A stretch of 23,725 nt of DNA from a virus. Within the stretch, counting starts at the first letter, position 1, and each line of letters starts with the position of its first letter. The translations under genes were made by a program, and so were the position numbers. Shown here piece after piece: positions 2,472 to 23,725 of the stretch. Where the stretch lies: the IMG/VR virus record IMGVR_UViG_3300010430_000456, positions 1 through 23,725 of that record; one strand, 5' to 3'. The notes under the pieces are model-generated. The model was not told the origin of the DNA. It worked only from the letters and a program-made list of their open reading frames with translations, and searched no databases.

Positions 2472-2762
2472 ATGTCTACAGGAATGCTAATAGTGGGTGG
2501 CTTAAGTGCAATAGGATTCATTATATTGCTTGCTAAAATGAATCGTATTTGGTTACGCCGTTTACTTGGATATGATCTTTATGTTGATATTATCGTTACA
2601 TTAGGATTTATGTATTTTATGGCTGGTACTTACTCAGGTGCTATAGCTGCAGTAATTAGTGGAATTATATTTTCACTAATTTTATGGGTAATCAAATTAA
2701 CAGTTGGAGCTGAAAAGTTAACAATACAGAATGGTTCTCCTACCTGGACACGGATTAAATGA
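2472..2762 (+). CDS. Small multi-pass membrane protein (96 aa)
   Basis: Three hydrophobic segments can be read (about residues 4-20, 37-55 and 57-78), with basic residues after the first (MNRIWLRR). This suggests an inner-membrane protein with a short cytoplasmic loop. There is no signal peptidase motif and no resemblance to a known holin or superinfection-exclusion family that I can name. It begins 2 bases after the preceding stop and overlaps the polymerase start by four bases (ATGA at 2759-2762), so its translation is probably coupled to that of the DNA polymerase. Confidence 0.6.
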   Translation: MSTGMLIVGGLSAIGFIILLAKMNRIWLRRLLGYDLYVDIIVTLGFMYFMAGTYSGAIAAVISGIIFSLILWVIKLTVGAEKLTIQNGSPTWTRIK

Positions 2763-4261
2763 AACATATTTTATTTCACGTAAATCCTAATAATATTTAT
2801 AAGATTGCCGTGCTCATAAAAGAATCTTCTTTTGCAAAACCTACATTAGAAAAAATGTATGTTCAACCTCTAATAGATAGAGGCATTCCACCAGAAGATA
2901 TTATTGCCCTGAGTCTTAAATATAATGACCAGGGAAAAGCTCCTGCTAAATTAATTAAAGATCATCTTCAAATTATTTTACAAGCTTGTGTAAAACTACA
3001 AGTTGATACGCTATTAGTTGCTGATGGTAACTATTTCAAAACTTTAACCAAAGAGCGTAAAGCAGAACCGCATCATGGTTATATTAAAAAATGTGCAATC
3101 AAAACCTTTGAACACATTAATGTAATTTTATCTGTAAATTATCAAGTATTATTTTATAACCCAACTCAACAAGACAAAATAGATATGTCTCTTGATACTG
3201 TCATAGGACATGTCAATGGAACACATCAAGATCTTGGCTTAAACATTATTCATAATGCTTATTACCCAGAGACAACAGCAGATATAAAAGCAATGATTCA
3301 TACATTGCATCAATATCCTACGTTAACATGTGATATAGAAACTTTCTCTTTGGCTCTGGATGAAGCAGGAATAGGAACAATTGCATTTGCATGGAACCAA
3401 AACAATGGATGTGCATTCGCTGTTGATCTGGGACCCACAGATGAGATACGTGATTATCTAAAAGAATTCTTTGTTCAATATGAAGGAACACTCATTTATC
3501 ACAATGGTTGTTTTGATATAAAAATCCTAATTTATAATCTATTTATGAATAGTCCACTAGATACAGTAGGACTATTATATGGATTAGAAATCATGTATCG
3601 CAGTATCCATGATACAAAAATTATTACTTACCTGGCTACAAACAGTACGTCAGGTAATAAGCTTGATCTTAAATCAAATGCTTTCGAATTTGCTGGTAAT
3701 TATGCAGTAGAAGAAATTAATAATATTAAAGCAATACCATTACCAGAATTACTAGAATATAACTTAGTTGATTGTTTATGCACTTGGTATGTACAAAGTA
3801 AAAATTATCCAGTTATGGTTAATGATGATCAACTAGAAATATATAAAAATATAATGCTACCAAGTATGAAAGTTATTACTCATATGGAATTAATTGGTAT
3901 GCCAATGGATTATAATAGAATCCTTAAAATACAACGAAAACTAAAAGTTATTTTACATGCTAAAAAGAAAATTATTTCTGATTCTCCATTAATTAAAGAT
4001 TATGAATGGCGTCTACAACGAGAAGCCATGATTAAAAAGAATCTACTATTGAAAAAGAAAGTTAGACCAATAGAAGATTTCTACGAGCCGTTTAATCCAG
4101 GTTCAGGCAAACAACTTCGAGGATTGTTATATGAAGAGTTTGGCTTTGATGTTATTGATAAAACAGATACTGGATTAGCTGCTACTGGAGGTAAGACAGT
4201 ACAAAAACTTCTTACTAAATTAATGAAAGAGCATAATTTAACAACTGAGGATCTAGAATAA
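2759..4261 (+). CDS. DNA polymerase family A, N-terminal fragment: 3'-5' exonuclease and thumb start (split gene, part 1)
   Basis: Proofreading half of an N4-type replicative DNA polymerase. The first 170 residues form an N4-like N-terminal domain. The 3'-5' exonuclease motifs follow: Exo I D192-I-E194, Exo II Y247-H-N249-G-C-F-D253 and Exo III Y334-N-L-V-D338, all acidic metal ligands intact. The thumb entry (MELIGMPMDY) and the FNPGSGKQLRGLLYEEFGF segment precede a stop at 4259-4261. All polymerase motifs A, B and C are missing here and are found in the gene at 4817-5929, which lies in the same reading frame 552 bases on. The break falls inside the thumb region, after ATGGKTVQKLL. Full length for the family is about 850-900 aa; this fragment is 500 aa. 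Confidence 0.9.
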   Translation: MKHILFHVNPNNIYKIAVLIKESSFAKPTLEKMYVQPLIDRGIPPEDIIALSLKYNDQGKAPAKLIKDHLQIILQACVKLQVDTLLVADGNYFKTLTKERKAEPHHGYIKKCAIKTFEHINVILSVNYQVLFYNPTQQDKIDMSLDTVIGHVNGTHQDLGLNIIHNAYYPETTADIKAMIHTLHQYPTLTCDIETFSLALDEAGIGTIAFAWNQNNGCAFAVDLGPTDEIRDYLKEFFVQYEGTLIYHNGCFDIKILIYNLFMNSPLDTVGLLYGLEIMYRSIHDTKIITYLATNSTSGNKLDLKSNAFEFAGNYAVEEINNIKAIPLPELLEYNLVDCLCTWYVQSKNYPVMVNDDQLEIYKNIMLPSMKVITHMELIGMPMDYNRILKIQRKLKVILHAKKKIISDSPLIKDYEWRLQREAMIKKNLLLKKKVRPIEDFYEPFNPGSGKQLRGLLYEEFGFDVIDKTDTGLAATGGKTVQKLLTKLMKEHNLTTEDLE

Positions 4262-4824
4262 TGTCACTTATATTAAGGAAACAATGTCAAGATGTTCTTG
4301 ATACTTTCAAACTACAAGAATATCACACAGCAATTAGTGAAAGTCAGAATTGCTTAAAAATCGTAACAGAATGTGGAAAGCCTTTAGTTAATATTATTGG
4401 TATTAAATTTAATCGCCAACAACCAACGATAGCTGAAATTGAATTTGCAGTAGAATTACTTACTGCATTCTTGGGAACTCATGCACCTACAATTAATAGC
4501 TATATTACAAAGCTTCGTGCTTTTAATAAACGTCCTCGTTTAGAACGTAAAACAAAAGATTTTGAAATAGACAGTCCATACCGAGCAGAATCAACACAAT
4601 GTACATTCAAAGATGCTCCGTTTAAATTTACAATTAATAATAAAAATAATAAAATTACAGTTAATACATGGGGAGAACCATCTCCATATGCATTAACTAA
4701 ATTTAAGTACAGTCCATCAAAAGAAAAAGCTGCAAGAAAATATCTTAAAGATTTACTAGCGTATGAAAAAGATGCATCAGCTCTAGAAGCTATTAAGTCA
4801 GAACTATCTAAATGTGATGTCTAA
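4261..4824 (+). CDS. Unidentified 187-aa gene inserted inside the DNA polymerase
   Basis: Not recognised. It starts one base into the stop codon of the polymerase N-terminal gene (TAATG), with a possible ribosome site GAGGA at about 4246-4250. It ends 8 bases inside the start of the polymerase C-terminal gene, so three frames are chained. The product has a helical N-terminal half, a basic middle (about residues 80-105, with KRPRLERKTK) and a beta-rich segment (INNKNNKITVNTWG), then a helical, charged tail. None of the homing endonuclease signatures (LAGLIDADG, GIY-YIG, HNH, His-Cys box), no Walker motif and no intein splice block was seen. It may be a DNA-binding accessory protein, or a degenerate mobile gene. 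AT-rich codon use matches its neighbours. Confidence 0.75.
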   Translation: MSLILRKQCQDVLDTFKLQEYHTAISESQNCLKIVTECGKPLVNIIGIKFNRQQPTIAEIEFAVELLTAFLGTHAPTINSYITKLRAFNKRPRLERKTKDFEIDSPYRAESTQCTFKDAPFKFTINNKNNKITVNTWGEPSPYALTKFKYSPSKEKAARKYLKDLLAYEKDASALEAIKSELSKCDV

Positions 4825-5929
4825 AACGACTCGTGAAGAGGCAATAGCACAAGCCAAGATTCTAAAGGCATTAATTGCTATTGCAGAAGCAGAAATCATT
4901 CAGAACACATTCGTATCAGCATTTATTGATAAGGTTGTGCATAAGAGTGATGGAATATGCTATTTACACGGTAATTTTAACCTGGGGGGTACAATCTCTG
5001 GTCGATTAAGTAGTTCAAAAATTAATCTACAGAATTTACCCAGTCATGGTTCAATCTATGCAAAAGATATTAAGCAATGTTTTATTGCACCAAAAGGTTG
5101 GGTATTAATAGGAGTAGACTTTTCTAGTTTAGAAGATAGAATTTCTGCTCTTACAACAAAAGATCCAAATAAATTAAAAGTTTATACTGATGGTTATGAC
5201 GGACACTGCTTACGTGCTTATAGTTATTTTGGTGAGTCAATGCCTGATATTGTTAATACCGTTGCTTCTATTAATTCTATTGAAGATAAATACCCTGATC
5301 AAAGACAGGATTCAAAAGGTCCTACATTTGCTCTGACATATCAAGGCACCTGGCACACATTAGTTAATAATCTGGGACTTTCAGAAAAAGCTGCTAAACA
5401 GATCGAAGAAAAATATCATGATCTGTATATAGTTTCTGATCAATGGGTACAAGATAAACTTATCCAGGCTTCAAAAGATGGATATGCAACAGTTGCATTT
5501 GGTTTAAGAATTAGAACTCCAATCTTAGCAAAGACTATTCTTAATAAAACTTATACACCATATGAAGCGAAAGCTGAGGGTAGAACGGTTGGTAATGCTC
5601 ATGGTCAATCATATGGTATGTTAAATAACCGTGCAGCTATTGATTTCCAACAACGCTTATTAGCATCTGAATATAGTCATGTAATAAAACCAATTTCTCA
5701 CATACATGATTCACAATATTTTATTGTTAAAAAAGATGTAGACACAATTGATTGGTTGAACAACAATCTAATTGAGTGTCTCGAATGGCAAGATCTACCT
5801 GAGATTAAGCATGATCAGGTAAAATTAGGTGGAAAGATAGAAATCTATCTACATAACTGGAGTAAAAGTATTTCTGTTCCAAATAAAGCGTCTAAAGCTG
5901 AAATACGTACCATTTTGGAAGGAGAATAA
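4817..5929 (+). CDS. DNA polymerase family A, C-terminal fragment: palm and fingers (split gene, part 2)
   Basis: Catalytic half of the split polymerase. From the ATG at 4817: a helix block (ILKALIAIAEAEIIQNTF), then GTISGRLSSSKINLQNLP (the TGRLSS/PNLQN region), motif A with D101-F-S-S-L-E106-D-R, motif B with R163, K167 and Y175 at the usual 4 and 8 residue spacing, and motif C H297-D298-S299, where Ser replaces the usual Glu. Both catalytic aspartates are present, so the fragment should be active if it pairs with the exonuclease/thumb product. No strong ribosome site precedes the start; the overlap with the upstream gene suggests translational coupling. A GTG at 4814 is an alternative start. 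Confidence 0.9.
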   Translation: MSKTTREEAIAQAKILKALIAIAEAEIIQNTFVSAFIDKVVHKSDGICYLHGNFNLGGTISGRLSSSKINLQNLPSHGSIYAKDIKQCFIAPKGWVLIGVDFSSLEDRISALTTKDPNKLKVYTDGYDGHCLRAYSYFGESMPDIVNTVASINSIEDKYPDQRQDSKGPTFALTYQGTWHTLVNNLGLSEKAAKQIEEKYHDLYIVSDQWVQDKLIQASKDGYATVAFGLRIRTPILAKTILNKTYTPYEAKAEGRTVGNAHGQSYGMLNNRAAIDFQQRLLASEYSHVIKPISHIHDSQYFIVKKDVDTIDWLNNNLIECLEWQDLPEIKHDQVKLGGKIEIYLHNWSKSISVPNKASKAEIRTILEGE

Positions 5930-6189: not shown

Positions 6190-6200
6190 TAAATATGTCA

Positions 6201-6217
6201 AAATAAGCAGCTTATTT
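6201..6217 (+). promoter_or_regulatory. Small 7-bp stem, 3-base loop hairpin upstream of the nuclease gene
   Basis: AAATAAG and CTTATTT pair perfectly around a CAG loop, 11 bases after the first hairpin. N4 vRNAP promoters are also short hairpins (5-7 bp stem, 3-base loop with a central purine), and this has that shape with a central A. However, the stem is AT-rich and the site lies before a replication gene, which N4 would normally transcribe with its other RNA polymerase. A leader hairpin is equally possible. The ribosome site GAGGA at about 6226-6230 follows it. Confidence 0.3.
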
Positions 6218-6240
6218 AACCTCTCGAGGAACCTAAATAA

Positions 6241-7221
6241 ATGTATACAAATAAGACCAATATACCTATTTCTCTCGCTGTATGGCTCTGTAATGACGAT
6301 TACGACCATAACCCTGATACAAACGTAATCAGTGCCACAACCCTGCTAAAACCGCTTAAATCAATCATATTAGCCCGTCAGAACATGGATCTGGACAAGA
6401 TTGCTGACGTTTCCAGCCTGATACCCTCCAGAATGGGAACAGCTCTGCATACGGCTGTAGAGGACGCCTGGAAGGATAAAGAAAAGCTTATACCCCTATT
6501 AAAAAGTCTTGGGTATAACGATGAAGTTATTGACAAGATTTTGATCAATCCTGATCCAGAAGAAATCAAACCAGAATCCATCTGTATTTACATGGAGCAA
6601 CGTGCTCAGAAAGCGTCTGGTAAATATTATATTTCGGGCAAATTTGATTTTGTAATCGAAGGCAGACTTGAAGATTTCAAATCCACTGGTACATACAATT
6701 ACATCAGTGGCTCCAACAAAGAAAAGTATCGTCAACAAGGATCAATATATCGTTGGTTAAATCCAGATATTATTACCAATGATGTAATGACCATTCAGTA
6801 TATATTTACTGACTGGAGTAGTCTCAAAGCCAGGACAGATAAGAATTATCCGTCCGGTCGATTAGTAGAACAAAAAATACCATTAATGAGTCTTGCTGAA
6901 ACAGAAAGTTTTATTAATGCCATTACTAAACAAATAGCAGAGTTTGAGCATACAGATCAGGATGATCTTCCCCCTTGTACTTCAGAAGAACTCTGGGCAA
7001 AACCAGACGTATTTAAATATTACAAAGATCCTGCAAAGCGAGCCAGATCAACTAAAAATTTTCCTACATATCAAGAAGCAGCAGCTAGATTAGCTAAAGA
7101 TGGAAGCGTAGGAATAATTGACACAGTAAAAGGACAAGTTGTTCGTTGTCGTTATTGTGATGTTTCTGGTATCTGTAATCAGGCTGCAAGCTATATTGCA
7201 GACGGGACACTTGTATTATGA
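6241..7221 (+). CDS. PD-(D/E)XK (RecB/Cas4-like) nuclease with probable Fe-S cluster
   Basis: A DNA exonuclease-type protein for recombination or processing of replication ends. RecB-like motifs in order: H70 in GTALHTAVEDAW; D136 in GKFDFV; D145-F-K147 in LEDFKST (the D/E-x-K pair); then a helix with YRQQGSIYRW, matching the QxxxY motif. Cysteines C303, C306 and C312 near the C-terminus and C17 near the N-terminus have the arrangement of the Cas4/AddB 4Fe-4S cluster. The ATG has GAGGA about 10 bases upstream. The first 360-450 bases use more C- and G-ending codons than the rest of the gene. The stop overlaps the next start by four bases (ATGA). Confidence 0.85.
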   Translation: MYTNKTNIPISLAVWLCNDDYDHNPDTNVISATTLLKPLKSIILARQNMDLDKIADVSSLIPSRMGTALHTAVEDAWKDKEKLIPLLKSLGYNDEVIDKILINPDPEEIKPESICIYMEQRAQKASGKYYISGKFDFVIEGRLEDFKSTGTYNYISGSNKEKYRQQGSIYRWLNPDIITNDVMTIQYIFTDWSSLKARTDKNYPSGRLVEQKIPLMSLAETESFINAITKQIAEFEHTDQDDLPPCTSEELWAKPDVFKYYKDPAKRARSTKNFPTYQEAAARLAKDGSVGIIDTVKGQVVRCRYCDVSGICNQAASYIADGTLVL

Positions 7222-8054
7222 ACAAGAAAAAATTATGTATTTATCATGGAAATTGTGCAGATGGATTTGGAGCAGCATGGGTAGTCAGAAAAGCATTCGG
7301 GGAAGAAAATGTAGAATTTCACCCAGGAATATATGGTCAACCACCACCAGATTGTACTGATAGAGAAGTTATTATGGTCGACTTTTCGTACAAACGACTT
7401 ACTCTATTAGATATGGCTGCTGAAGCTAAAAATATCTTCATACTTGATCATCATAAAAGTGCTGAAAAAGATCTCATTGAGCTTCCGCTCAATGTTACAG
7501 CAGTATTTGATATGGAACGAAGTGGAGCAATGCTGGCATGGAATCAATATTTTCCAGAAAGAACAGCTCCTGAATTAATTCGACATATCCAAGACAGAGA
7601 TTTATGGAAATTTGAACTTGATGGAACTCGTGAAATACAAGCTTCTGTATTTTCATATCCATATGATTTTAATGTATGGGATGTATTAATGTCTGCAGAT
7701 AAAACATTATTACAAAGAGATGGTAGAGCTATTGTTCGTAAACAAGAAAAAGATGTAAATGAACTGTTAGGTGTAGGATTGTATCGTACAACGATTGGTG
7801 GACATGAAGTACCTGTGCTTAATGCTCCATATTTCTTTTCATCAGAAGCAGGACAAATAATGTGTAAAGGAGAACCCTTTGCAGCTTGTTATTGGGATAC
7901 ACCCAATAATAGAGTTTATAGCCTTCGATCTAATGAAGACGGTTTAGATGTATCAGAAATCGCATTCAAATTTGGAGGAGGAGGACATAAACACGCTGCA
8001 GGGTTCACTATTTCTTATGATAAATTATTAGATTTAGTTAAAGAGAATCCATAA
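7218..8054 (+). CDS. DHH/DHHA1 family phosphoesterase
   Basis: A manganese-dependent phosphoesterase. Signature residues are complete: D15 in HGNCADGFGAAW, D55 in VDFSY, the D77-H78-H79 triad in LDHHKS, and the DHHA1 substrate-binding loop GGGGH ending at His257 in FGGGGHKHAAGF. At 278 aa it is the compact form close to NrnA/nanoRNase and oligonucleotide or cyclic-dinucleotide phosphodiesterases, and distinct from RecJ (about 570 aa). Likely substrates are short oligonucleotides or a signalling nucleotide; a role in recycling degraded host DNA or in countering a nucleotide-based defence is inference only. It is coupled to both neighbours through start-stop overlaps. Confidence 0.88.
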   Translation: MNKKKLCIYHGNCADGFGAAWVVRKAFGEENVEFHPGIYGQPPPDCTDREVIMVDFSYKRLTLLDMAAEAKNIFILDHHKSAEKDLIELPLNVTAVFDMERSGAMLAWNQYFPERTAPELIRHIQDRDLWKFELDGTREIQASVFSYPYDFNVWDVLMSADKTLLQRDGRAIVRKQEKDVNELLGVGLYRTTIGGHEVPVLNAPYFFSSEAGQIMCKGEPFAACYWDTPNNRVYSLRSNEDGLDVSEIAFKFGGGGHKHAAGFTISYDKLLDLVKENP

Positions 8055-12994: not shown

Positions 12995-13219
12995 ATGAAT
13001 ATGATTGATGGAGCTAAAGCTTTAGGGATTGCAGTAATTGGTATTATGTTATTTTTACTTTTACCTTTTATTGGTCTTATTTTTTTAGGAGCAATAATTT
13101 TCTTTTTTGCTTATGTATTCATAAGAGAAATGAGAGAAGAAAAATTACAACAAAAATATGAAGAAGCGAAAGCATCTAGAAAGGAGCAATCGCAAGCTCA
13201 AGACCAGCCATGTGAGTAG
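12995..13219 (+). CDS. Small membrane protein at the end of the rightward unit (74 aa)
   Basis: A very hydrophobic stretch (about residues 10-45) can form one long or two short membrane helices, followed by a charged, coiled-coil-like cytoplasmic tail (IREMREEKLQQKYEEAKASRKEQ). This layout occurs in many phage membrane proteins, including holin-like ones, but no specific family is recognised. The last 44 bases overlap the 3' end of the leftward vRNAP gene, so its C-terminal tail codons are antisense to that gene. No terminator separates the converging genes. Confidence 0.6.
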   Translation: MNMIDGAKALGIAVIGIMLFLLLPFIGLIFLGAIIFFFAYVFIREMREEKLQQKYEEAKASRKEQSQAQDQPCE

Positions 13220-16200
13220 CTTCTTTAACAATATCATAAGGCGTATGCATTCTACCGGACATACTTGATGTAATTAGGTTTGAATCATCTATATACGCAA
13301 CATCCATCATTTCTTGTAATGCCATCATAGACATTGCACTTGCTGGGTTATCTCTAAACGTCCTACCAATCACTCGTTGAATTCGGAACAAGAATTTGGT
13401 GAACATCAAAAATCCCATATCATTTAACCATTGCATTTCTGGACTTGTAGGAACATCATAATTTATAAATGTTTCTACAATATCCAGAATCGCATCCTGT
13501 CTTAATTTATGTACTGGATTAGCTTGTATTTTAACTTGTATTTGTTTGCGTTGATCTACATCAGTAGCTTTAGATAATGATGTAACCAATTTGTTATAAG
13601 CTTTAAGCTCATCAGGATGTGATTTTTCAATCTTATTTAAGTTATGTTGCCATAAAGCGTAACGAGCAACAAAGTCACTGTATTGTGTACCTTGTAATAA
13701 TTTCTTATACAAGAATGTATCTTTTGTCATTACTACTTGTTTAGCAACATCAGTAGCAGTCTCAGGCACATACTTGTCAGTAAATGGAGTTATTTTATCA
13801 AGTATTCCTTTTCTATATCCAAACTTATTCTCTTCATTACTGGCAATATTAATATCCTCAACAATGTTCTGGAAGATACCCATATCAACTAATTCAGCAA
13901 TTGGATTAACTCTGATATTGTCATTCAGACGAGTTAATTTATTCTGAATATTGCTCTTGGCAACATCAGATAGATCAGATTGAGTATCTAACCTACGTTG
14001 TAAAATATTACGTTCATTAATTTCAATCTGATAATCATGCAAAGCTTGTAATGCAATAGCCTGATTCTTAGCAATATCTTCCAAAGGTACACCTTTTACG
14101 TATAGTACAAAGTTATTACTGGTTATATTATCTTTCAGTACTACAAAAGATTTAACCACAATATAATCCTTTGCCATTGCAACTACTTCCTGCCAAATAT
14201 CCCCCGCTAATTTCAAATGAAAATCCAATCGAACAAACTCACCAAAAGAAGATTCAGATAACATTTTTACATATTTCTGATCACTCAATGCTATTTTTCT
14301 ATAACCAAAAATAAGATCAATTAATTCTTCTCGAACCTCAATATTATCTTCTCCCCAGATTTCTTTCACATCATCTTTCATGTCTTGAGGCATCATCTGG
14401 TAGATCTCTCGATATCGAGGATCTGGTGAATTTTTACCTACTACTACATATTTACTTGGTTCACGAGAACTGTTCTCAAGATATTCTTCATGAGCTAACT
14501 TCATTGCTCTCCGATTAATTTCCCTGGAGTTCACTTTATCAATGATATTGGCTTCCATATCACCTAATGTTTCAGCAAAATTATTATTCTTCTCGAGGAC
14601 ACGATCTTTCGTATGTTCATTCATCATATAGCGATAAGTCGTAATCTTGCCTTCGGTATCTACTATAGGAACCAGATAATTATTAGTATCAGCAGGATCA
14701 AGCGGTACATTGTTAAACATGTTTTGTGCTGTTGATTCCTGGTTCGCTTTCTTAACAGTCTCTGTTGCTATTACAGCATCAACATTTGCAGCATTACGTC
14801 CTTCATTTTTATAAATATCATAAAGTGAAGTACCTTTAGCCTGCTTACTGGTCAATGAAGTCACACCTTTGATCGTTGGATCAAGTGCATCTACTTTAGA
14901 AACATAGATCACTGTCTCTTTTTCTTCATGAGTATCATGTTTATCTTTTGTAATTGAGTGATCTGGGAAATACCCCTGTTGAGCCATTTCTTTTTCTTGT
15001 GATTTCTTACCCACAATAAAATTAATAGCTGGGTTATAAATTTCTCTGGTATACCCCTTCACCATATTAAATTTATTACCATCAAATAAACTATCCAATG
15101 CCTTAACTTTGTAATTACGATGAATTCTAACAGTTGTTTTTGCACCGTTAATCTCAGGATCACGTTCAAACTCATGTTTAATAACATCAGCAGCCAGAGT
15201 TTTGTGAGCCTGTTCGGTATAGCTCAGTGCTTGTAACGTAGCTAAACGATCAATTAATACTTCAGCTGCTTCAAGATCACCTGTGGCTTCAACATCATCA
15301 ACTGTTGTCATTTGAGCAATGATATGGGCATTCAATAATGGGTCATCTACCAGTGCATTACCTGTGGCCATAATGCTACCCAGGCTTTGTGCTTGTTTAG
15401 TGTAAAAGAATCCATTATCACCATAGGTTGTATGCAATTGGCTCTTGATATCATTAATCTCAGCTGTTAATTCTTTACTATTTTTACTTAGAAATTTTAA
15501 GATGTCTTCTAACTGGTACTGGTCAAACAGTACCTCAACATCTGCTTTTAACAGCACTTTATTCAGAGCTACTATTTCATTCTGAGATAATGGTCTATCT
15601 GGATCAAAATCATCCAATAAGTGCTTCTTAACATTTTCAGAGAGCTGCTTACGAGCTTGGTCAATTAGATGCTTAGAAGTACGTAATAAGTTGTGCCACT
15701 TGGTATCTTTCCGTGTAGGTCCGACTGCATCCCGTGCTAACTTGACCAGGAAATTCTGTTCAGAGAATCCGATCATTCGGTTAATCTGGCTGATTGTTCG
15801 CTGAAATTCATCACTCTTGAGGGCTGAGGCAGCAATAATCGGAATACCTGTAATATCACGCACAACCTTGCCAGGAATCGATAATTTGTCTCCCTTGGCT
15901 ACTAATTTCTCGTTATATTTTCTTAATGGATCAAATATAATCTTATTAAAATTAGCTACAATTTTTGGATTTAATTCATGAATCTTATCAAGATACTTCA
16001 ATATATTAATGTGATTTCTAGTATTAATTCCTACTAAATTCTCTGTAAGTTTTAAGAGAGCTTGATCAGCACTCATGTTCTCAGTGCCTTGCACCTTGTT
16101 AGCAATCCAGTCCAATATATTCAAATAAAGATTATGTAACCGTTCTTTCCAGGTTCCTTGTTTGGTATCCCGCTTGGTTTTACGTTCAATTCTGGACAAT

Positions 16201-19200
16201 ATATCCCCAAATTGCTCATTTGTTAGGCCAAATGCTACGAATTCATGCAATGAATTGGGCGTATTGAAGATGTAATCCATTCTGTCCTGTGCTGCTTTCA
16301 ATTCAGCAGCTGGATCAACGGCTGTAATCAGATTTCCCTGGTTATCGGTACGCAGGAAATCCTGCACGGTAATCACTTCTTTTACCTCATTGAACAGCTT
16401 CAGGAGCTGTTTACGGACGGTAAAGTTCTGATCTATGCCATATTGACTAATTGCATGGATAAGCTCGTGTACGAGTGTCTCCTGTGCAGAGATCTGGCTC
16501 ATATTGCCAATAACACCCTTACCAGCCTGAATACGGATCTTCTCTTCTTTGATGCCACCAAAGACAATATCACCCTCGGTATTCACTTTGAGGTCATATT
16601 CCAGTGGAGCTTTATCCAGAGGGCTAATTACCTTATTAACCAAGTTGTTTAATAGGTCTTTCAGGTACGTCTGACGCTCCTGGGTTTCTTCGACATTACC
16701 GAATACCAGTTTGCCCTTCGAATTAATACTGCCCAGCTCATCAAATATCTGGGTTGAATTTTGACCAGATAATGATTGCTCGTATGTGGCATTAAAATTC
16801 TCAAAATCTATACTACGATTGCTTTGAGCAATAGAGCCTAATCCTTCAGGACCTTCTTCATGCTCTCTGATTTGTTCAGCCAGAAATTCCTCTTCTAAAC
16901 CAGGTGGAACCCTGGTTGGCACCGCACTTAATAAATCGTTTACCAGATCCAGAGCATCATTGGCATCATAGTCCTGTCCATCTATTTTGTGCCCTTGCTC
17001 GTTTAACCATTCAGCTAAAGCATCAAATGAGTGTCCACCCTTGGCAGGGAACAATGGAAATTTACCACCAATACGTTCTTTAAAGATTACTGGATCAATA
17101 CCTTCTTGAGCTGCAGAAGCACGGCTAATACCACCCCATTTACCTAACTGAATAAAGAATTTTCTTGTAACAGTTGGTTTCTCACGACTACTTGTATATT
17201 TCTCTTCGTAATCATTGTTAATCGCATCTGATGCTAACTCAGTAGCAACCTTGGCATCTTCTTGTTCCTGCTTAGCTTGAGTTGGCTTTTTAGCAGTTTT
17301 AGGTTTAACAGACGTTTCAGATTCATGTCTACCACCCAGTAAATTATAATTATTATAATTAGCTGGTTTTATTATTTTACGTGCTTCAATAGTTTCTTTT
17401 TCGAGCACTTCTAGATCAAAAAGAATTGCTTCAATAGAATGAATATCAGCTCTTTCTAAGAACTCATCATCCATGATCTTACCTTCGACTACATCTACAA
17501 GTTCAGGATGTGCTCTTTCCAGACTACTTAATGCATTTTGTAATGACTTTTTAACTTCAGTTACCATGTTGTAACGATCCATAATTACTTGCATGGCTTT
17601 ATTAAAATCTTTAGTACCTTTAAAAGCGTCATCTAACTTGAACATAGATGCATCAAAAATGTTCAGAGAAGCATATTGGCCAAAGATCTCAGCCACAATA
17701 GATGAATCCAATGACTGAATCATTAATACAATACCTGCTGTTGAATTATTAACAGGTACAGATTTACTAATAGTGCCAGTCGAAGACGCTAGAGGCTTAC
17801 CATGATTTTTTCCTGGTCTGGGATCTGAAGTATTATTAATTGGAACACCATGCTCTACTTTTACTTTAGCATTAGGATTCTGATATTCCCTCTGTTGTTC
17901 TGTCTTAAGAATATACAATCGATCCAGAAACTCTTGAGACATTGCTGTTTTAACAGCAGGGAAGAAATTCAACATTCCCTTCATAATAGTATTTACTTCT
18001 TCTGTGCTGAGACTCTTTCTTCTTTCACCTGGTTTTAAATCTTCGTTCTTGGCTTCTTCAGCTTTTGTAAGCTCCAGATTTAATTTCTCTTCGAAGATAT
18101 ACCACATAGCAGTAAAGCCATTCGTGATTTTCTCACGGAATTGTCTATAATTTCCTAGTTCTTCTTCCAATGCAATTTTTAGTGCAGCACCATAAGTATC
18201 GTTTACACGTTTCTGAAACGAAATAGGTATGCTTGGGTGTGCATCTTCAAGCATATAATTTTTAGCATCAGCTACTTTTGGTGGCTTAATTGGAAACTTA
18301 ATTCTTGGTTTACCAAATTCAGACAGTTCTTTAAATAATTCATTAATTTTTTGTTGTGGATTCTCTTTAGCATTAGCTGCTTCCATTAAACGATCATAAA
18401 AATTAGTAAGAGCAGTATCTCCAATAATACTTTGAATTCGTTTAATGCCTGCACCATATCCATTAGTCATTAATGGATCTTTGGCAAGTTTACGTCCTAC
18501 AGTAGAAATAACTTTATCTGGTTCTGTTGTATCTTTAAAAGAACCTAATACTTGTTCCATAAAAATACGATCATCTGCAGAGAAATTCTTTGGATCTAAA
18601 TCTCCTAATGCTCTGTTCCATGCAGTACCTAACTTTTCATAGTTATCCAGATTTACTTCTGGTTCTGCAGCTTTCCATGATCCAATGCCTGTATGCATTA
18701 AATCTCCATAAATACTGGCAGATGCTAATTTCTCTCTGATGTTTGGATCAGTACGAGATTGAAGTAAACCAATAGCAATACCATTAGTAATACCATCTAC
18801 TTCAATAGATAAATTAGTTTCAAATGAAGTCTTAATTGTGAAATCAGTATCTAATGCTGAAGCCAAAGCAGTTAATCCATCCAGAGTAGCTACTGCTTCT
18901 CGATCTTTAACAGCTTCCATGATTGCTTTACGTGCTGCAGTCTTTTGTTTACCAATAAGTGGATTTTTTGTATTTTGACTAGCTCGTAAAGCTGTAATAC
19001 CTTTTTGTATTACTGGATCAGAAATTAATTCATTAAATTTAGTATTAACTTCTGCTTCATCTACGATGTTTTCAATTTTAGTACCAAATGCTTGAAGAGC
19101 AGCCATCATAAATGCTAACTGTCCATCCTGTGTATTAACTTCAGTATTCCAGGCTCTAGCACCTACAAAGTGACGATGTAATTTACTGTTTTGTGGATTA

Positions 19201-22200
19201 ACAGTAGAACTGGCCATTCCAACACGATGATTAACAAATACCTCATGTTCAAAATAGAATACAGAATCTGGATTTTCTAACGATTCTTGAAGATCTAAGA
19301 AGTCATCTATTTCTTTAGTAATGGCTTGGTTACGTGCTTCGATACCTGGACGTTTACTTATATGTTCGTTAGCAACATTACGATTATAACCATAAAGATT
19401 TTCTAACTGAGTACGACCAAGAAACTCTGCAGCTTCTACTACATTTGTTTTAACTTCCCATTCAACTTTTTGGTATGCCTTAATAGCATCACGTAATGGC
19501 TGAGGCACTAATGCAAATGGACTATTCTTTATTTTTTTAACAACTGTTTTAACTGGTTCTAAATGAGGACCTGTTGCAAATTCTTTTATATTGAAAAGAG
19601 TTTTCAGCAAATCTTCACTCTTACGAATAACCTCACGTATCTTAGCCAAAGGACCTGATAATTCTAATTTATATGGATTATCTTGTTCAGGAACTGGATT
19701 ACCAGCAATGCGTACAAAATGTACAATAGCATCAGGAATATCTGTAACTGTATCAGCTCCGCCCATGTCACTAATTTGAGCTGGAGTAAACGAAGTCTGG
19801 AATGCCATATCTCCATGTAACATCGTACTAACAGCAAATTTACCTAATGCTAATTCTATACGTGGAATCATATCTCCAGTAATACCTGGCTTATCTTTTA
19901 AACCAAGTTGTTTAAATATTGCACGGCCTATTGTTTCATCTAATGAATTTCTGGGAACACCTGCATTAGTTAAATTTTTAGTAGCATCATTTGATGGTGT
20001 ACCTTCTTTTGGATTACCTAAAATGATATTAATACTTTCAGGATCATTTATTAATGTGGCTTGTCCTTCATTTGCGATCCAGTCAAGAACAACCATAGCC
20101 ATAGAAGATAATAAATTTTCATTTATATATTTCTTACCATCTTTACCACGCTGTATGAAATATCCAGAAGGATCACCAAAGTTTTCATTAACTAATTCTG
20201 CTTCTCCGGTTTCATCAATAACTCCATCTATCTGACTCTTATTAATCAGATCAGATTTTAAGTTATTGATAATGCCTTCACCTTCTTTTGTTCCTAACAA
20301 GATTTCTTTGAAGCGTCTGTTAAACGCAATCAATGTAGGAAAGGCATCTTTCTGAGCTTTAGTTAATTTTGGAAATGATTTTCTGGCTTCTTTTTTAGCA
20401 GCACTATCTTCTTTGGATGTAACCAATGAGAAAAAATTATGAATCTTCTGAAGAACACTTGTTGTTTTTGGATTAGGATCTACTTCAAGTATATCTTCCA
20501 ATGTAGTTCGTTCATCAATAGGGACAGCTCGATCTGCTTTTGTCCCAGTCTCATATGGAACATTATCCTGAAGAATATTTTTAGCAGTACTACCTTGATC
20601 TACTTCTGGATCATGAACACCTTGAACTTGTCCTGGTTTGGCTACAGTAATACCAGCAATAGCATTGTTTAATACTTTAATTGCTCTATTAACATTCACG
20701 ATACGACCATGTCCTGCTTCCATATTTTTTGGAGCAGTTTCTAATGTATTAATCGCATTTTGTACAGGAACTGTTTTAAGATCTTCAGGCACTGCTTTTA
20801 ATGCTGCTAAAACTTCTGCAACATTATCTGGGGTTACTAAAGGAACTTGCCCTTCAGGGGTAACTGTAGGAGCAACTGCTGGCTCAGCAGCTTTAGCTTT
20901 TGGTTCCACCTTCTCTTCTTTAGGCTTTGGTTTAACTTCTTCCTTGGCCTTAGTTTTAGGTTCCACTTTCTTTTTCTTTTCAGGTTCGGCCTCCTTTGTT
21001 GGTTCTGCTTTAGCAGCTGCAAAACCTGGGGATTTTTTCTTAAAGCCAAATCGATCTATGCCTGCATTATTTAAGACACGAATAGTATCTCTAATTAATG
21101 CTATCTCCAGATTAAGTGCTTCTACAAATTCTGCAGTGTGTTTAATAAACCGTCCATCATCAGTAGTGAAACCTTTTTGAGCTAATTTATTTTTCTGACT
21201 TCTACCAAGTGCTTGTAAATGTTCAATCGTCTGAGTAGCTTTAGCCTTGGCTTTTGCATTATCTTTAATACCAAGAGCACGTTGAAAATCAGTTACATGT
21301 TGATTAACGCCTTTGAATTTTCCTTTACCATTTCGAACCTCTTCATGAACATCTTGTATACCTTTTACTGATACATCCATATGAGCATCAACGGCATCTT
21401 CAGATTCACGAAGTTTCTTAAAGTCTTTTGCTTTTCGTTTTTGTTCTTTTGTAGCATGTTCATCAAATGATTCACTACCTAATGCCCTAATAATCTGGGG
21501 AGTAGTTACATCCATGCTATTTTCAATATTATCAATAAGCGATACAACAGCAGCTTTACCAACTTTTGGACTTAACTTACTGGTCAGATCTGATTTTACT
21601 TTTCTGCCTTCAGCATCAACAGTTGATCGTTCTTGAGGATCAAGTAGTTCTACAGCCTCTGCGAATGCCTTACCTTTTTCTTCTCGTAGTTGCTCTCTAA
21701 TAGTATTAGATAATTTTTTCGTATTCTTAATATAGATTTGTTGCTTCTTAGCTTTCTGTGCTGGGTCAGTAGTTGAATCAATCTCTTTATCCAGCATATC
21801 TAACAACGTATTATAATTATCAAGATGTTCTTCGATCTGTTCTTCTGGTAATGCTGCTATATCGATGTCACTAATCGCACCTAATCCTAATTCGGCGTCT
21901 TCTTCTTCTAAAGCTCGTTTAATAATTTTTTGATTATTACCAATGCCACGTTTTTCTAATGCGTCTAATCCAGCTTTAACAACAGGTACTGCAGCCGTAG
22001 CTACTGCTCCAGGTGCTTTTATAGCAGTTTGCCCACCACGTATACCTTTACCAATGACAGCACCGACTGCAGCATCCGTAAGAATGTCAGATACATCTAA
22101 TTTAGATACATCTTGTTTTGCTGCAAGATCAGTTAATGCTTTCTGTGCTCCTTCAGTTCCACCCTCAACAAAACCTGCTTTAACAATCTCTTTCATTTCA

Positions 22201-23588
22201 CGTAAAGTTTTCTTAACTAATGGTGCTGCAGCTCTAGCTTGTGCTTTCTTAGTTTGTTTAATTTGTTTAGCTGCAGTTTTTAAAGATGCTTTAGCTGCAT
22301 TAAGTGTAACTTGTGCAGTAGCAACACCTGTCTTTTCTGCAATAGCTAAAATTTTATTAGGACTACCTTTAAGTCTTAAGACAAACTTAGCACCCAGAGT
22401 ATCTAAACCAGCAGAAACAAATGATAAGACACCTGCCATAGCTTTTTCAGATTCATTAGGTACTCTTCCATGTTCTGCTTGGAATTCTTCGATTGCTTGA
22501 TCATATTGAGAAATAGCTAATGTACTTGTACCAAATAATGCTTGTCTTGCTAAGACATACATTTGCGGTAATGTATTAGCTAATAATTCACCTGCAGCTG
22601 CTGTATCTTCAATTGCTAAATCTGCAACACCACTTAAAAAGTGACCAATACCTCTCGCATAATCACCTTTAATAAATGACTCTTCTGCTTTTTGTGTTGT
22701 ATCACTTAATTTAGCTAATGCTGGAGCAGTATTATTATCATTGATCCAACCAGATATAGTAGTTAGTCCACTATCAATCGTATCAATAAATACACCACGA
22801 GCTTTTACATCTTGTAAGTTGGAGAATTTATCAGATTGAGCAAACTCTTGTGCTGCAGTAGATAGATCACCTCCTCTTAATACTTCGTTATATAGCAAAA
22901 TATCATTATCTGTAATACCAACTGTATCTAGATAGTTAGCTATATGTGAAGGAGCTTTTAATATATCAGCACCAACTGTTGCAGCTCCTGAGAGAACATT
23001 CAAACCAAGATTAGCAATATAACCAGGTACAGTATCTAAATCTGCATCTGAAATTAGTTGTCTACTTTCACGTTCACTACGGCGTATGTCTTGTGATAAA
23101 CGATCTTGTTCAAGTTGTGCTTCTTTAAGTGCAGCAGCTTTATTTTCAGGACTTAACAATTCATAAGGAATACCAAAACGAGAAGGACCTGTCTCTACAC
23201 TTCCAGAAATAGCTTGTTGTTTATCTGCAGTCTTTTGTGCAACAGATGCTTCTTTATCATCAACTAAAGTAGTAAATCCACCACCTATTAATTTCTCTTT
23301 AGCTTCAGTTGCAGTTAATGTTGAATATTGTTTTTGTTCGGTTGTTGGGGTCTTCTCCATTAAATCACTAAACAAAATATCTTTTGCTTGTTCAGTAGAT
23401 AATGGATCAGCAGTAGCTGCATTAGCAGTAGGAAGTAACTTCTCTCCATTTATTACTAGCGACACACTATTTTGGGTTGCCAATGCTGACTCTGGTGCCG
23501 GCACTTTTGTACAAGACTCATTATTTACCACTAGTGCAGGTGGTAATGGACAAAACGGAAATATGTTTGATCTTGATGCATTAAGCAA
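13176..23588 (-). CDS. Virion-encapsidated RNA polymerase (vRNAP), N4 gp50-like, about 3,450 aa; 5' end doubtful
   Basis: Giant virion protein, injected with the DNA, that transcribes early genes in N4. Residue numbers count from the TTG at 23588. Order: N-terminal region with a hydrophobic stretch (187-213); a Lys/Pro/Glu linker (about 858-915); the RNA polymerase core (about 1002-2084; N4 core about 998-2103); then a long C-terminal region. Core motifs: HRVG...NPQ near R1455 (TxxGR region), motif A D1598 in EVDGITNG, motif B R1699-x3-K1703-x7-Y1711-G, motif C D1979 in IFDAS. These spacings match those I recall for N4 (424, 559, 670, 678, 951 in mini-vRNAP). H2374-E-L-I-H2378 plus E2449 (HEFVAFGL) form a zincin signature. 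The first 45-50 codons (23440-23588) are probably not part of this gene, since a different rightward coding sequence fills them. Confidence 0.92.
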   Translation of the reverse strand: MLNASRSNIFPFCPLPPALVVNNESCTKVPAPESALATQNSVSLVINGEKLLPTANAATADPLSTEQAKDILFSDLMEKTPTTEQKQYSTLTATEAKEKLIGGGFTTLVDDKEASVAQKTADKQQAISGSVETGPSRFGIPYELLSPENKAAALKEAQLEQDRLSQDIRRSERESRQLISDADLDTVPGYIANLGLNVLSGAATVGADILKAPSHIANYLDTVGITDNDILLYNEVLRGGDLSTAAQEFAQSDKFSNLQDVKARGVFIDTIDSGLTTISGWINDNNTAPALAKLSDTTQKAEESFIKGDYARGIGHFLSGVADLAIEDTAAAGELLANTLPQMYVLARQALFGTSTLAISQYDQAIEEFQAEHGRVPNESEKAMAGVLSFVSAGLDTLGAKFVLRLKGSPNKILAIAEKTGVATAQVTLNAAKASLKTAAKQIKQTKKAQARAAAPLVKKTLREMKEIVKAGFVEGGTEGAQKALTDLAAKQDVSKLDVSDILTDAAVGAVIGKGIRGGQTAIKAPGAVATAAVPVVKAGLDALEKRGIGNNQKIIKRALEEEDAELGLGAISDIDIAALPEEQIEEHLDNYNTLLDMLDKEIDSTTDPAQKAKKQQIYIKNTKKLSNTIREQLREEKGKAFAEAVELLDPQERSTVDAEGRKVKSDLTSKLSPKVGKAAVVSLIDNIENSMDVTTPQIIRALGSESFDEHATKEQKRKAKDFKKLRESEDAVDAHMDVSVKGIQDVHEEVRNGKGKFKGVNQHVTDFQRALGIKDNAKAKAKATQTIEHLQALGRSQKNKLAQKGFTTDDGRFIKHTAEFVEALNLEIALIRDTIRVLNNAGIDRFGFKKKSPGFAAAKAEPTKEAEPEKKKKVEPKTKAKEEVKPKPKEEKVEPKAKAAEPAVAPTVTPEGQVPLVTPDNVAEVLAALKAVPEDLKTVPVQNAINTLETAPKNMEAGHGRIVNVNRAIKVLNNAIAGITVAKPGQVQGVHDPEVDQGSTAKNILQDNVPYETGTKADRAVPIDERTTLEDILEVDPNPKTTSVLQKIHNFFSLVTSKEDSAAKKEARKSFPKLTKAQKDAFPTLIAFNRRFKEILLGTKEGEGIINNLKSDLINKSQIDGVIDETGEAELVNENFGDPSGYFIQRGKDGKKYINENLLSSMAMVVLDWIANEGQATLINDPESINIILGNPKEGTPSNDATKNLTNAGVPRNSLDETIGRAIFKQLGLKDKPGITGDMIPRIELALGKFAVSTMLHGDMAFQTSFTPAQISDMGGADTVTDIPDAIVHFVRIAGNPVPEQDNPYKLELSGPLAKIREVIRKSEDLLKTLFNIKEFATGPHLEPVKTVVKKIKNSPFALVPQPLRDAIKAYQKVEWEVKTNVVEAAEFLGRTQLENLYGYNRNVANEHISKRPGIEARNQAITKEIDDFLDLQESLENPDSVFYFEHEVFVNHRVGMASSTVNPQNSKLHRHFVGARAWNTEVNTQDGQLAFMMAALQAFGTKIENIVDEAEVNTKFNELISDPVIQKGITALRASQNTKNPLIGKQKTAARKAIMEAVKDREAVATLDGLTALASALDTDFTIKTSFETNLSIEVDGITNGIAIGLLQSRTDPNIREKLASASIYGDLMHTGIGSWKAAEPEVNLDNYEKLGTAWNRALGDLDPKNFSADDRIFMEQVLGSFKDTTEPDKVISTVGRKLAKDPLMTNGYGAGIKRIQSIIGDTALTNFYDRLMEAANAKENPQQKINELFKELSEFGKPRIKFPIKPPKVADAKNYMLEDAHPSIPISFQKRVNDTYGAALKIALEEELGNYRQFREKITNGFTAMWYIFEEKLNLELTKAEEAKNEDLKPGERRKSLSTEEVNTIMKGMLNFFPAVKTAMSQEFLDRLYILKTEQQREYQNPNAKVKVEHGVPINNTSDPRPGKNHGKPLASSTGTISKSVPVNNSTAGIVLMIQSLDSSIVAEIFGQYASLNIFDASMFKLDDAFKGTKDFNKAMQVIMDRYNMVTEVKKSLQNALSSLERAHPELVDVVEGKIMDDEFLERADIHSIEAILFDLEVLEKETIEARKIIKPANYNNYNLLGGRHESETSVKPKTAKKPTQAKQEQEDAKVATELASDAINNDYEEKYTSSREKPTVTRKFFIQLGKWGGISRASAAQEGIDPVIFKERIGGKFPLFPAKGGHSFDALAEWLNEQGHKIDGQDYDANDALDLVNDLLSAVPTRVPPGLEEEFLAEQIREHEEGPEGLGSIAQSNRSIDFENFNATYEQSLSGQNSTQIFDELGSINSKGKLVFGNVEETQERQTYLKDLLNNLVNKVISPLDKAPLEYDLKVNTEGDIVFGGIKEEKIRIQAGKGVIGNMSQISAQETLVHELIHAISQYGIDQNFTVRKQLLKLFNEVKEVITVQDFLRTDNQGNLITAVDPAAELKAAQDRMDYIFNTPNSLHEFVAFGLTNEQFGDILSRIERKTKRDTKQGTWKERLHNLYLNILDWIANKVQGTENMSADQALLKLTENLVGINTRNHINILKYLDKIHELNPKIVANFNKIIFDPLRKYNEKLVAKGDKLSIPGKVVRDITGIPIIAASALKSDEFQRTISQINRMIGFSEQNFLVKLARDAVGPTRKDTKWHNLLRTSKHLIDQARKQLSENVKKHLLDDFDPDRPLSQNEIVALNKVLLKADVEVLFDQYQLEDILKFLSKNSKELTAEINDIKSQLHTTYGDNGFFYTKQAQSLGSIMATGNALVDDPLLNAHIIAQMTTVDDVEATGDLEAAEVLIDRLATLQALSYTEQAHKTLAADVIKHEFERDPEINGAKTTVRIHRNYKVKALDSLFDGNKFNMVKGYTREIYNPAINFIVGKKSQEKEMAQQGYFPDHSITKDKHDTHEEKETVIYVSKVDALDPTIKGVTSLTSKQAKGTSLYDIYKNEGRNAANVDAVIATETVKKANQESTAQNMFNNVPLDPADTNNYLVPIVDTEGKITTYRYMMNEHTKDRVLEKNNNFAETLGDMEANIIDKVNSREINRRAMKLAHEEYLENSSREPSKYVVVGKNSPDPRYREIYQMMPQDMKDDVKEIWGEDNIEVREELIDLIFGYRKIALSDQKYVKMLSESSFGEFVRLDFHLKLAGDIWQEVVAMAKDYIVVKSFVVLKDNITSNNFVLYVKGVPLEDIAKNQAIALQALHDYQIEINERNILQRRLDTQSDLSDVAKSNIQNKLTRLNDNIRVNPIAELVDMGIFQNIVEDINIASNEENKFGYRKGILDKITPFTDKYVPETATDVAKQVVMTKDTFLYKKLLQGTQYSDFVARYALWQHNLNKIEKSHPDELKAYNKLVTSLSKATDVDQRKQIQVKIQANPVHKLRQDAILDIVETFINYDVPTSPEMQWLNDMGFLMFTKFLFRIQRVIGRTFRDNPASAMSMMALQEMMDVAYIDDSNLITSSMSGRMHTPYDIVKEATHMAGLELAIAPF
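23420..23470. other. Probable breakpoint: vRNAP 5' end fused head-to-head to an unrelated coding fragment
   Basis: Left of about 23430 the minus strand reads as ordinary vRNAP N-terminal sequence (TEQAKDILFSDLMEKTP). Right of about 23455 the plus strand reads as a well-formed secreted beta protein, while the minus reading becomes irregular. Neither gene has a credible start codon with ribosome site near the change: the leftward frame only finds a TTG at 23588 with no ribosome site, and the rightward frame has no ATG before 23563. Two 5'-truncated genes joined head to head indicate a chimeric assembly or a DNA rearrangement. The exact base cannot be fixed. Confidence 0.6.
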
Positions 23589-23725
23589 TGTAACAATTGA
23601 TTTCTTTGATATTCATATTGGTGCCACATCAAGTGAAACGGTTGAAATTTACTGGAAAAACGGAACACATGTTGGATTTGAAAGTAATTCTGCTGCTTGG
23701 ACATTAATAGGTTCGACTACAGTGA
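23441..23725 (+). CDS. Fragment of a secreted or surface-type beta-rich protein (both ends missing)
   Basis: The plus-strand frame is open from well upstream to the window end. From about 23461 it reads as a convincing protein: DTLFWVANADSGAGTF, then a GGNGQNGNMFDLDAL motif, NVTIDFFDIHIG, TVEIYWKNGTHVGFE and AAWTLIGS. I associate this pattern with extracellular beta-sandwich repeats in large bacterial surface proteins, especially those of Bacteroidota, and less often with phage tail proteins. It has no start codon of its own on the vRNAP side, so it is a 5'-truncated fragment and it also runs off the right edge. Codons such as GCC, GGC and GGT are more frequent than in the phage genes. Confidence 0.6.

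Follow-up and report, generated by a model that had tools for sequence, protein, structure and literature searches.

The window analyzed here is a 23.7-kb virus record (IMG/VR IMGVR_UViG_3300010430_000456, taken in full at 23,725 nucleotides) in which a DNA polymerase is encoded by two genes with a third gene between them. The first gene (2759-4261, plus strand) encodes chain 1, a product of 500 amino acids (aa) that comprises the N-terminal part, the 3'-5' exonuclease and the thumb and ends in ...HNLTTEDLE before a TAA stop at 4259-4261. The inserted gene (4261-4824, plus strand; 187 aa), which belongs to a family that we call F1, begins at the ATG within the sequence TAATG. The second polymerase gene (4814-5929, plus strand) encodes chain 2, which comprises the palm and fingers, carries motifs A, B, and C, and is 371 aa long from a GTG at 4814 or 370 aa long from an ATG at 4817; the ATG is the probable start, given that it aligns with the start in relatives. 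All three open reading frames (ORFs) overlap, chain 1 and the insert by 1 base and the insert and chain 2 by 8 bases (from the ATG) or 11 bases (from the GTG). An initial annotation of this DNA had described a polymerase in two genes with an unrelated gene between them, and the ORF coordinates, overlaps, and frame were as it claimed.

A Pfam search placed the exonuclease family PF01612 (E 3e-6) and the beginning of PF00476 in chain 1 and positions 71 to 344 of PF00476 in chain 2 (E 2e-32). Both chains also matched the PHROG profile of a phage polymerase family, phrog_17, over positions 518 to 935 (chain 1) and 931 to 1246 (chain 2), and because these matches adjoin, the two halves cover the profile without a gap. 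Intact N4 gp39 (NC_008720) agrees in family and motifs and matches in total length (859 aa versus 870 aa for the two chains together), but it is one chain with a short loop at the break site. Its alignment to both chains (57% identity for chain 2 and 40% for chain 1) revealed no residue or segment lost, and the exonuclease residues D192, E194, D253, Y334, and D338 of chain 1 agree with it. The phrog_17 and N4 gp39 alignments therefore bear out the earlier claim that the exonuclease motifs and thumb lie in one gene and motifs A, B, and C in the other, with nothing catalytic lost. By its matches to phrog_17 and PF00476/PF01612 along its length, the split enzyme is classified as an N4-like (Schitoviridae) family A DNA polymerase. 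It is encoded not as a single polypeptide but in two ORFs separated by a stop and an insert, an arrangement kept in relatives, and the two adjacent genes jointly cover the whole enzyme, as in the 43A/43B type. The surrounding genome is likewise N4-like (Schitoviridae) by gene content, as judged by PHROG profile matches, given that it encodes a giant virion RNA polymerase (3470 aa; 13176-23588, minus strand; phrog_2206) together with an N4-type primase (phrog_2135) and exonuclease (phrog_2139). A single-strand binding protein and a Sak4-like protein are also encoded in the window.

N4 requires its own DNA polymerase. In the contigs of five relatives with the split (73,023, 69,250, 74,313, 70,355, and 71,214 bp), the split gene was the sole PF00476 gene, and a search of the same five contigs of 69 to 74 kb for PF00136 (family B polymerase) found none. 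Both chains are under purifying selection. The ratio of nonsynonymous to synonymous differences (pN/pS) between the window and its closest relative, locus L007, was 0.29 for chain 1 and 0.16 for chain 2, and the ratio of the corresponding substitution rates (dN/dS) between two other split loci, L032 and L034, was 0.10 for chain 1 and 0.13 for chain 2. Given this selection on both chains and the lack of a second family A or B polymerase in the five long contigs, the split enzyme presumably must work as the only replicative polymerase of the phage.

The break site and its new termini

Relatives were collected by similarity-based profile scans of viral contigs and genome contigs, and 133 distinct loci were readable on both sides of the junction. 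No stop was present at the junction in 114 of these loci and the polymerase was broken there in 19, an intact-to-split ratio that is not a population frequency. L007 (contig 3300010430_000602) has the same break and a homologous 206-aa insert; its identity to the window is approximately 70 to 73% in chain 1, 79% in chain 2, and 43% in the insert. Chain 2 of L009 begins in the same way, after a different gene. Since the identical break recurs in independent metagenomes, chance or an assembly error in the stop or the insert, which the initial annotation had named as a result that would overturn its reading, is excluded.

The break follows the NPxS...STxxxVL thumb motifs. In an alignment of N4 gp39 with Taq polymerase, it corresponds to approximately A525/H526 of Taq, in a short loop that links the STxxxVLEAL helix to the long helix following it. 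The original placement of the break in the thumb region was close, although its precise position is after the thumb motifs, at the thumb-palm boundary. The intact homologues inspected have a short loop at this site, such as VNHTDDP. In the window, junction alignments delimit an extension at the C terminus of chain 1, LLTKLMKEHNLTTEDLE (4207-4258, plus strand), and another at the N terminus of chain 2, MSKTTREEAIAQAK (4817-4858, plus strand), both of which are absent from the uninterrupted polymerases inspected. The extended termini are common to 18 of the 19 split loci and are less clear in the alignment of L047. Across these 18 loci, the chain 1 tail reads K(L/F)(M/I)xEHNLTEEDL and the chain 2 head reads M.(R/K).EAI..A(K/R).L..LI, and the facing ends carry the signature ...N[IL][TS]EE[DE]L (chain 1) and M.[RK].EAI..A (chain 2) of the split state. 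The gain is approximately 8 to 10 residues per half and is alike across polymerases that are otherwise just 45 to 60% identical. The junction extension was not found in any phage record among the matches listed, and no cultured phage with this split was among the matches listed, part of whose records were inspected.

The extension would most simply be an adaptation to the two-chain state, and the conserved stretch gained at each new terminus could form a docking hairpin. We infer that the two chains physically assemble into an active enzyme, reassembling without splicing and probably through the pair of helices flanking the break, with the extensions acting in docking.

The slot between the halves

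What lies between the two polymerase genes differs among the split loci. F1 occupies this slot in the window, L007, L016/L015, and L038/L051, a second family (F2) in L014, L018/L017, and L009, and a third (F3) in L065, L068, L070, and L072. L047 carries a 163-aa orphan, L160 carries three small ORFs of which the first matches phrog_7880, and L159 carries a 227-aa HNH endonuclease (phrog_374, E 1e-73) with two small ORFs. The slot of L032 (4765-4997) holds a 233-nt noncoding element that has a terminal stem of 26 bp and is predicted to form very strong RNA structure (z -6.9); when viral contigs were searched, the element was found only in its own contig, and Rfam gave no match. In L019/L020, L026, L034, and L048, the slot is empty. 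A grouping of F1, F2, and F3 as a single family was unsupported by phmmer or hhalign. L032 and L034 are approximately 88 to 90% identical in both chains, yet the former has the element and the latter nothing, which indicates that the slot changes quickly; the intermingling of F1 and F2 among the close relatives of the window points to exchange. A tolerated site with exchangeable content appears to be the best explanation of the slot.

Outside the window, F1 homologues occur solely in the same slot of the loci listed above (phmmer E 1e-13 to 1e-37 within the family). Direct scans for F1 found nothing beyond L007 in the viral contigs and nothing in the phage collection, and within the 17 records searched, F1 and F2 were confined to the slot. 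The window insert had no Pfam or PHROG match and no tblastn match in 50,697 phage records. The dN/dS of F1 between the window and L007 was approximately 0.44, at a divergence where that of chain 1 was 0.17. Given this value, F1 is a real gene. It is not one that the polymerase generally needs, and the insert is probably accessory in nature.

The position of F1, between and overlapping both polymerase genes, raises the alternative that it is a third polymerase subunit, translated in step with the two chains and serving, for example, as a processivity factor or as a clamp that holds them together. Four lineages retain F1, each of them in this slot, and its dN/dS indicates some purifying selection. 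However, the close relatives L014 and L009 carry the unrelated F2 in place of F1, and L019, L026, L034, and L048 have no insert at all, so that a third subunit is not needed in general. F1 has also diverged far more quickly than the polymerase (43% versus 73 to 79% identity), and we consider it unlikely to be a subunit. A broader proposal is that this uncultured N4-like lineage combines an obligate two-chain polymerase, joined by a helical docking extension, with a standing cassette slot for unrelated small proteins that are made in step and act on the polymerase or the host replisome; we offer this tentatively and regard it as doubtful in its full form.

No endonuclease domain (HNH, GIY-YIG, or LAGLIDADG) was found in the window insert by Pfam, PHROG, and phage searches. 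An AlphaFold2 model of F1, built from four sequences (predicted local distance difference test score of 78), begins with three strands and a helix, which is only suggestive of an HNH/AP2 endonuclease, and it had no Foldseek match with E <= 0.001. Fold searches with the F1 and F2 models gave best VIA Z values of 5.5 and 4.7, within noise, and nothing with E <= 0.001. F1 or F2 as a worn HNH/AP2 endonuclease was rejected (hhalign 0.2% for F1 against the L159 HNH protein). The initial view that the insert does not look like a homing endonuclease stands for the window, where no such domain was matched, but L159 has an HNH gene in exactly this slot, and a link to these elements is likely part of its history.

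We also considered whether the insert is a relocated gp38, the gene that precedes the polymerase in N4. The profiles are unrelated (hhalign 0.1 to 1.2%), and gp38 is separately present in split relatives. The gp38 genes (L001 2924-3451 and equivalents) form one fast-evolving family across phrog_4881, 24535, and 16775, and gp38 lies farther from the polymerase in several split relatives.

Translation of the two chains and origin of the split

A Shine-Dalgarno-like GAGGA (4243-4252, plus strand) lies in the last codons of chain 1, with its AGGA 9 nt upstream of the insert ATG. Fifteen split loci have a gene start right after chain 1, and in 12 of them AGGA occurs 3 to 9 nt ahead of the next ATG. 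The AGGA is present in these chain 1 tails although GAG makes up only approximately one-quarter of the Glu codons in the genes (107/417). In the window, L007, and L016 (ATGTCTAA), the chain 2 start overlaps the stop of the gene ahead of it; elsewhere it comes closely after that stop. The DNA of the chain 1 tail thus appears also to serve as a translation signal.

We consider it probable, on the strength of these sequence comparisons, that the window encodes an obligate two-chain polymerase made from overlapping genes with an exchangeable slot between them and that the split began with a homing endonuclease. The only replicative DNA polymerase of the phage would be made as an exonuclease-thumb chain and a palm-fingers chain, both from one message by translational coupling via the Shine-Dalgarno sequence in the end of chain 1 and the overlapping start and stop. 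The gap would be a tolerated slot, opened most likely by a homing endonuclease that entered here and has since been lost or replaced.

Programmed ribosomal frameshifting could instead join the halves in the insert-free relatives (L019/L020, L026, L034, and L048), where the two ORFs overlap by 4 to 8 bases. The shift required, however, is +1 for some of these loci but -1 for the rest, an ATG near the same residue begins chain 2 every time, with a Shine-Dalgarno-like sequence ahead of it in part of the loci, and frameshifting would be unable to bridge inserts of 230 to 1140 nt; we regard it as very unlikely. Given these +1 and -1 frames, the equal frame of the window halves, which the initial annotation had correctly reported along with their spacing of 552 bases, is a coincidence. 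Removal of the insert from the message as a self-splicing intron, which would yield one full-length polymerase, has precedent in the group I introns known in phage polymerase genes and discussed for MEP401 (PMC10580990), and a large gap is present elsewhere in nACB1. In the window and at the junction there was no Rfam intron match, group I introns included, and the insert RNA is weakly structured (z -1.6). The insert is also coding throughout, from TAATG to its own stop, and the insert-free relatives have halves in different frames and nothing to splice, so that splicing is highly improbable. We give equally little credence to gene decay or a sequencing or assembly error, although an in-frame TAG in the motif B region of L159 and the second break in L047 and L048 suggest that some polymerases in this group are damaged or misassembled. 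As the initial annotation had judged from its neatness, the arrangement is not a decaying gene, given the same break and the same termini in 18 loci from many independent metagenomes, the purifying selection on both chains, and the lack of any other family A or B polymerase in the five long contigs. Posttranslational joining by a split intein, as known in family B polymerases of T4-like and jumbo phages (PMC11923092; PMC6892783), has almost no probability, given that each new end has just 8 to 10 or so extra residues, compared to natural split-intein halves of approximately 100 plus 40 aa or 15 to 25 aa plus a long C part (PMC11923092), and that no intein family was matched in Pfam.

For the two-chain polymerase, homing endonuclease entry followed by loss is the likeliest cause of the two genes, given that Schitoviridae polymerases often carry HNH genes at sites other than this one and that one lies in the L159 slot. 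Several results weigh against this simple history. A recognizable homing endonuclease is present in only 1 of the 19 slots, where it may postdate the split. In a tree built without the junction columns, whose backbone is poorly resolved, the split loci do not form a clean clade, with the intact L023 and L044 falling among split relatives. The split loci alone as one clade, without L023 and L044, were rejected (approximately unbiased [AU] test, p 0.016), and a clade of the split loci plus these two was not rejected (AU p 0.26). Parsimony gives six changes, which leaves a single origin short of proof. The split may have arisen once and been reversed or replaced twice, or it may have arisen a few times independently; the shared termini favor the former.

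Known split polymerases and further observations

Split phage polymerases are already known, and what is undescribed is the conserved family A form at the thumb-palm loop. In Aeromonas phage 25, the products of the split gene 43 (43A/43B) copurify and have polymerase activity; the seg43 endonuclease lies between the halves in 25 and an untranslated intercistronic sequence in 44RR (PMC2988022). As in these phages, the replicative polymerase here occupies two adjacent genes with varying content between them, L159 and L032 paralleling 25 and 44RR, and the L032 element resembles the intercistronic sequence described in 44RR. The T4-like precedent cited in the initial annotation is valid in that split polymerases are known there, but the polymerases of 25 and 44RR are family B and unrelated, whereas the window has a family A enzyme with conserved terminal extensions and a slot that in this group also holds orphan genes or nothing. 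Closer in family are MEP401 and MEP402 (OM43 phages, Zobellviridae), in which a DNA polymerase A is split around a small orphan gene, as it is in most group I relatives (PMC10580990). Unlike in the window, the MEP401/402 break maps just before motif A, the 77-aa insert is unrelated to F1, F2, or F3, and no terminal extension has been described.

Among N4-like phages, Pollock, Pylas, and nACB1 have their N4 gp39 homologue in two genes around an HNH endonuclease at a site other than that of the window, and the polymerase of JA1 is likewise split elsewhere by an HNH endonuclease (PMC3670811). The break in these HNH-interrupted polymerases lies within the palm/fingers (mapped here for Pollock and nACB1), there are no conserved new termini, and close relatives such as KpCHEMY26 are intact. 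The expectation that a two-chain N4-like polymerase would be unusual needs qualifying, as split N4-like polymerases are already on record. Split polymerases are not mentioned in a study of N4-like genomes from metagenomes (PMC10654107), and the literature searched contained no family A split at the loop between thumb and palm that combines conserved new ends with exchangeable slot content across an N4-like lineage.

These loci present one essential enzyme, at one site, in a natural series: intact, or split with an endonuclease, orphan genes, a structured noncoding element, or nothing in between. The series makes the conversion of a gene into two subunits by a homing element, and its reversibility, directly testable. 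It also suggests that a family A polymerase tolerates a cut between exonuclease-thumb and palm-fingers, which could be useful for conditional polymerases. This lineage may be overlooked or truncated wherever annotation or marker-gene trees demand a single polymerase ORF.

Other breaks were seen in the collection. L176 has a separate break at the same loop (4996-5289) without the conserved extension and with a 97-aa orphan ORF. The polymerases of L047 (3342-5689) and L048 (3808-5659) have one break at the thumb site and another further along in chain 2, with frame changes, and may be in at least three pieces. In chain 2 of L159 (approximately 6196-7310), an otherwise complete polymerase has the in-frame TAG with approximately three extra codons (PTFLL*LTYGG), which could be a scar, an error, or a site of stop-codon readthrough. 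L003, L004, L041, L043, L045, L046, L049, and L050 are N4-like polymerases broken elsewhere, within the palm/fingers; that of L043 is also broken in the exonuclease part, and an HNH endonuclease gene is annotated in L003 and L004.

Directly upstream of chain 1, the window encodes a small hydrophobic, probably membrane protein (2472-2762), which is kept in L007 (2713-3015) and matches PHROGs without known function. In the Pylasvirus and Pollockvirus records L002 (5056-5418) and L003 (5751-6128), the gene after the polymerase is labeled phosphofructokinase, a doubtful label for a product of approximately 120 aa.

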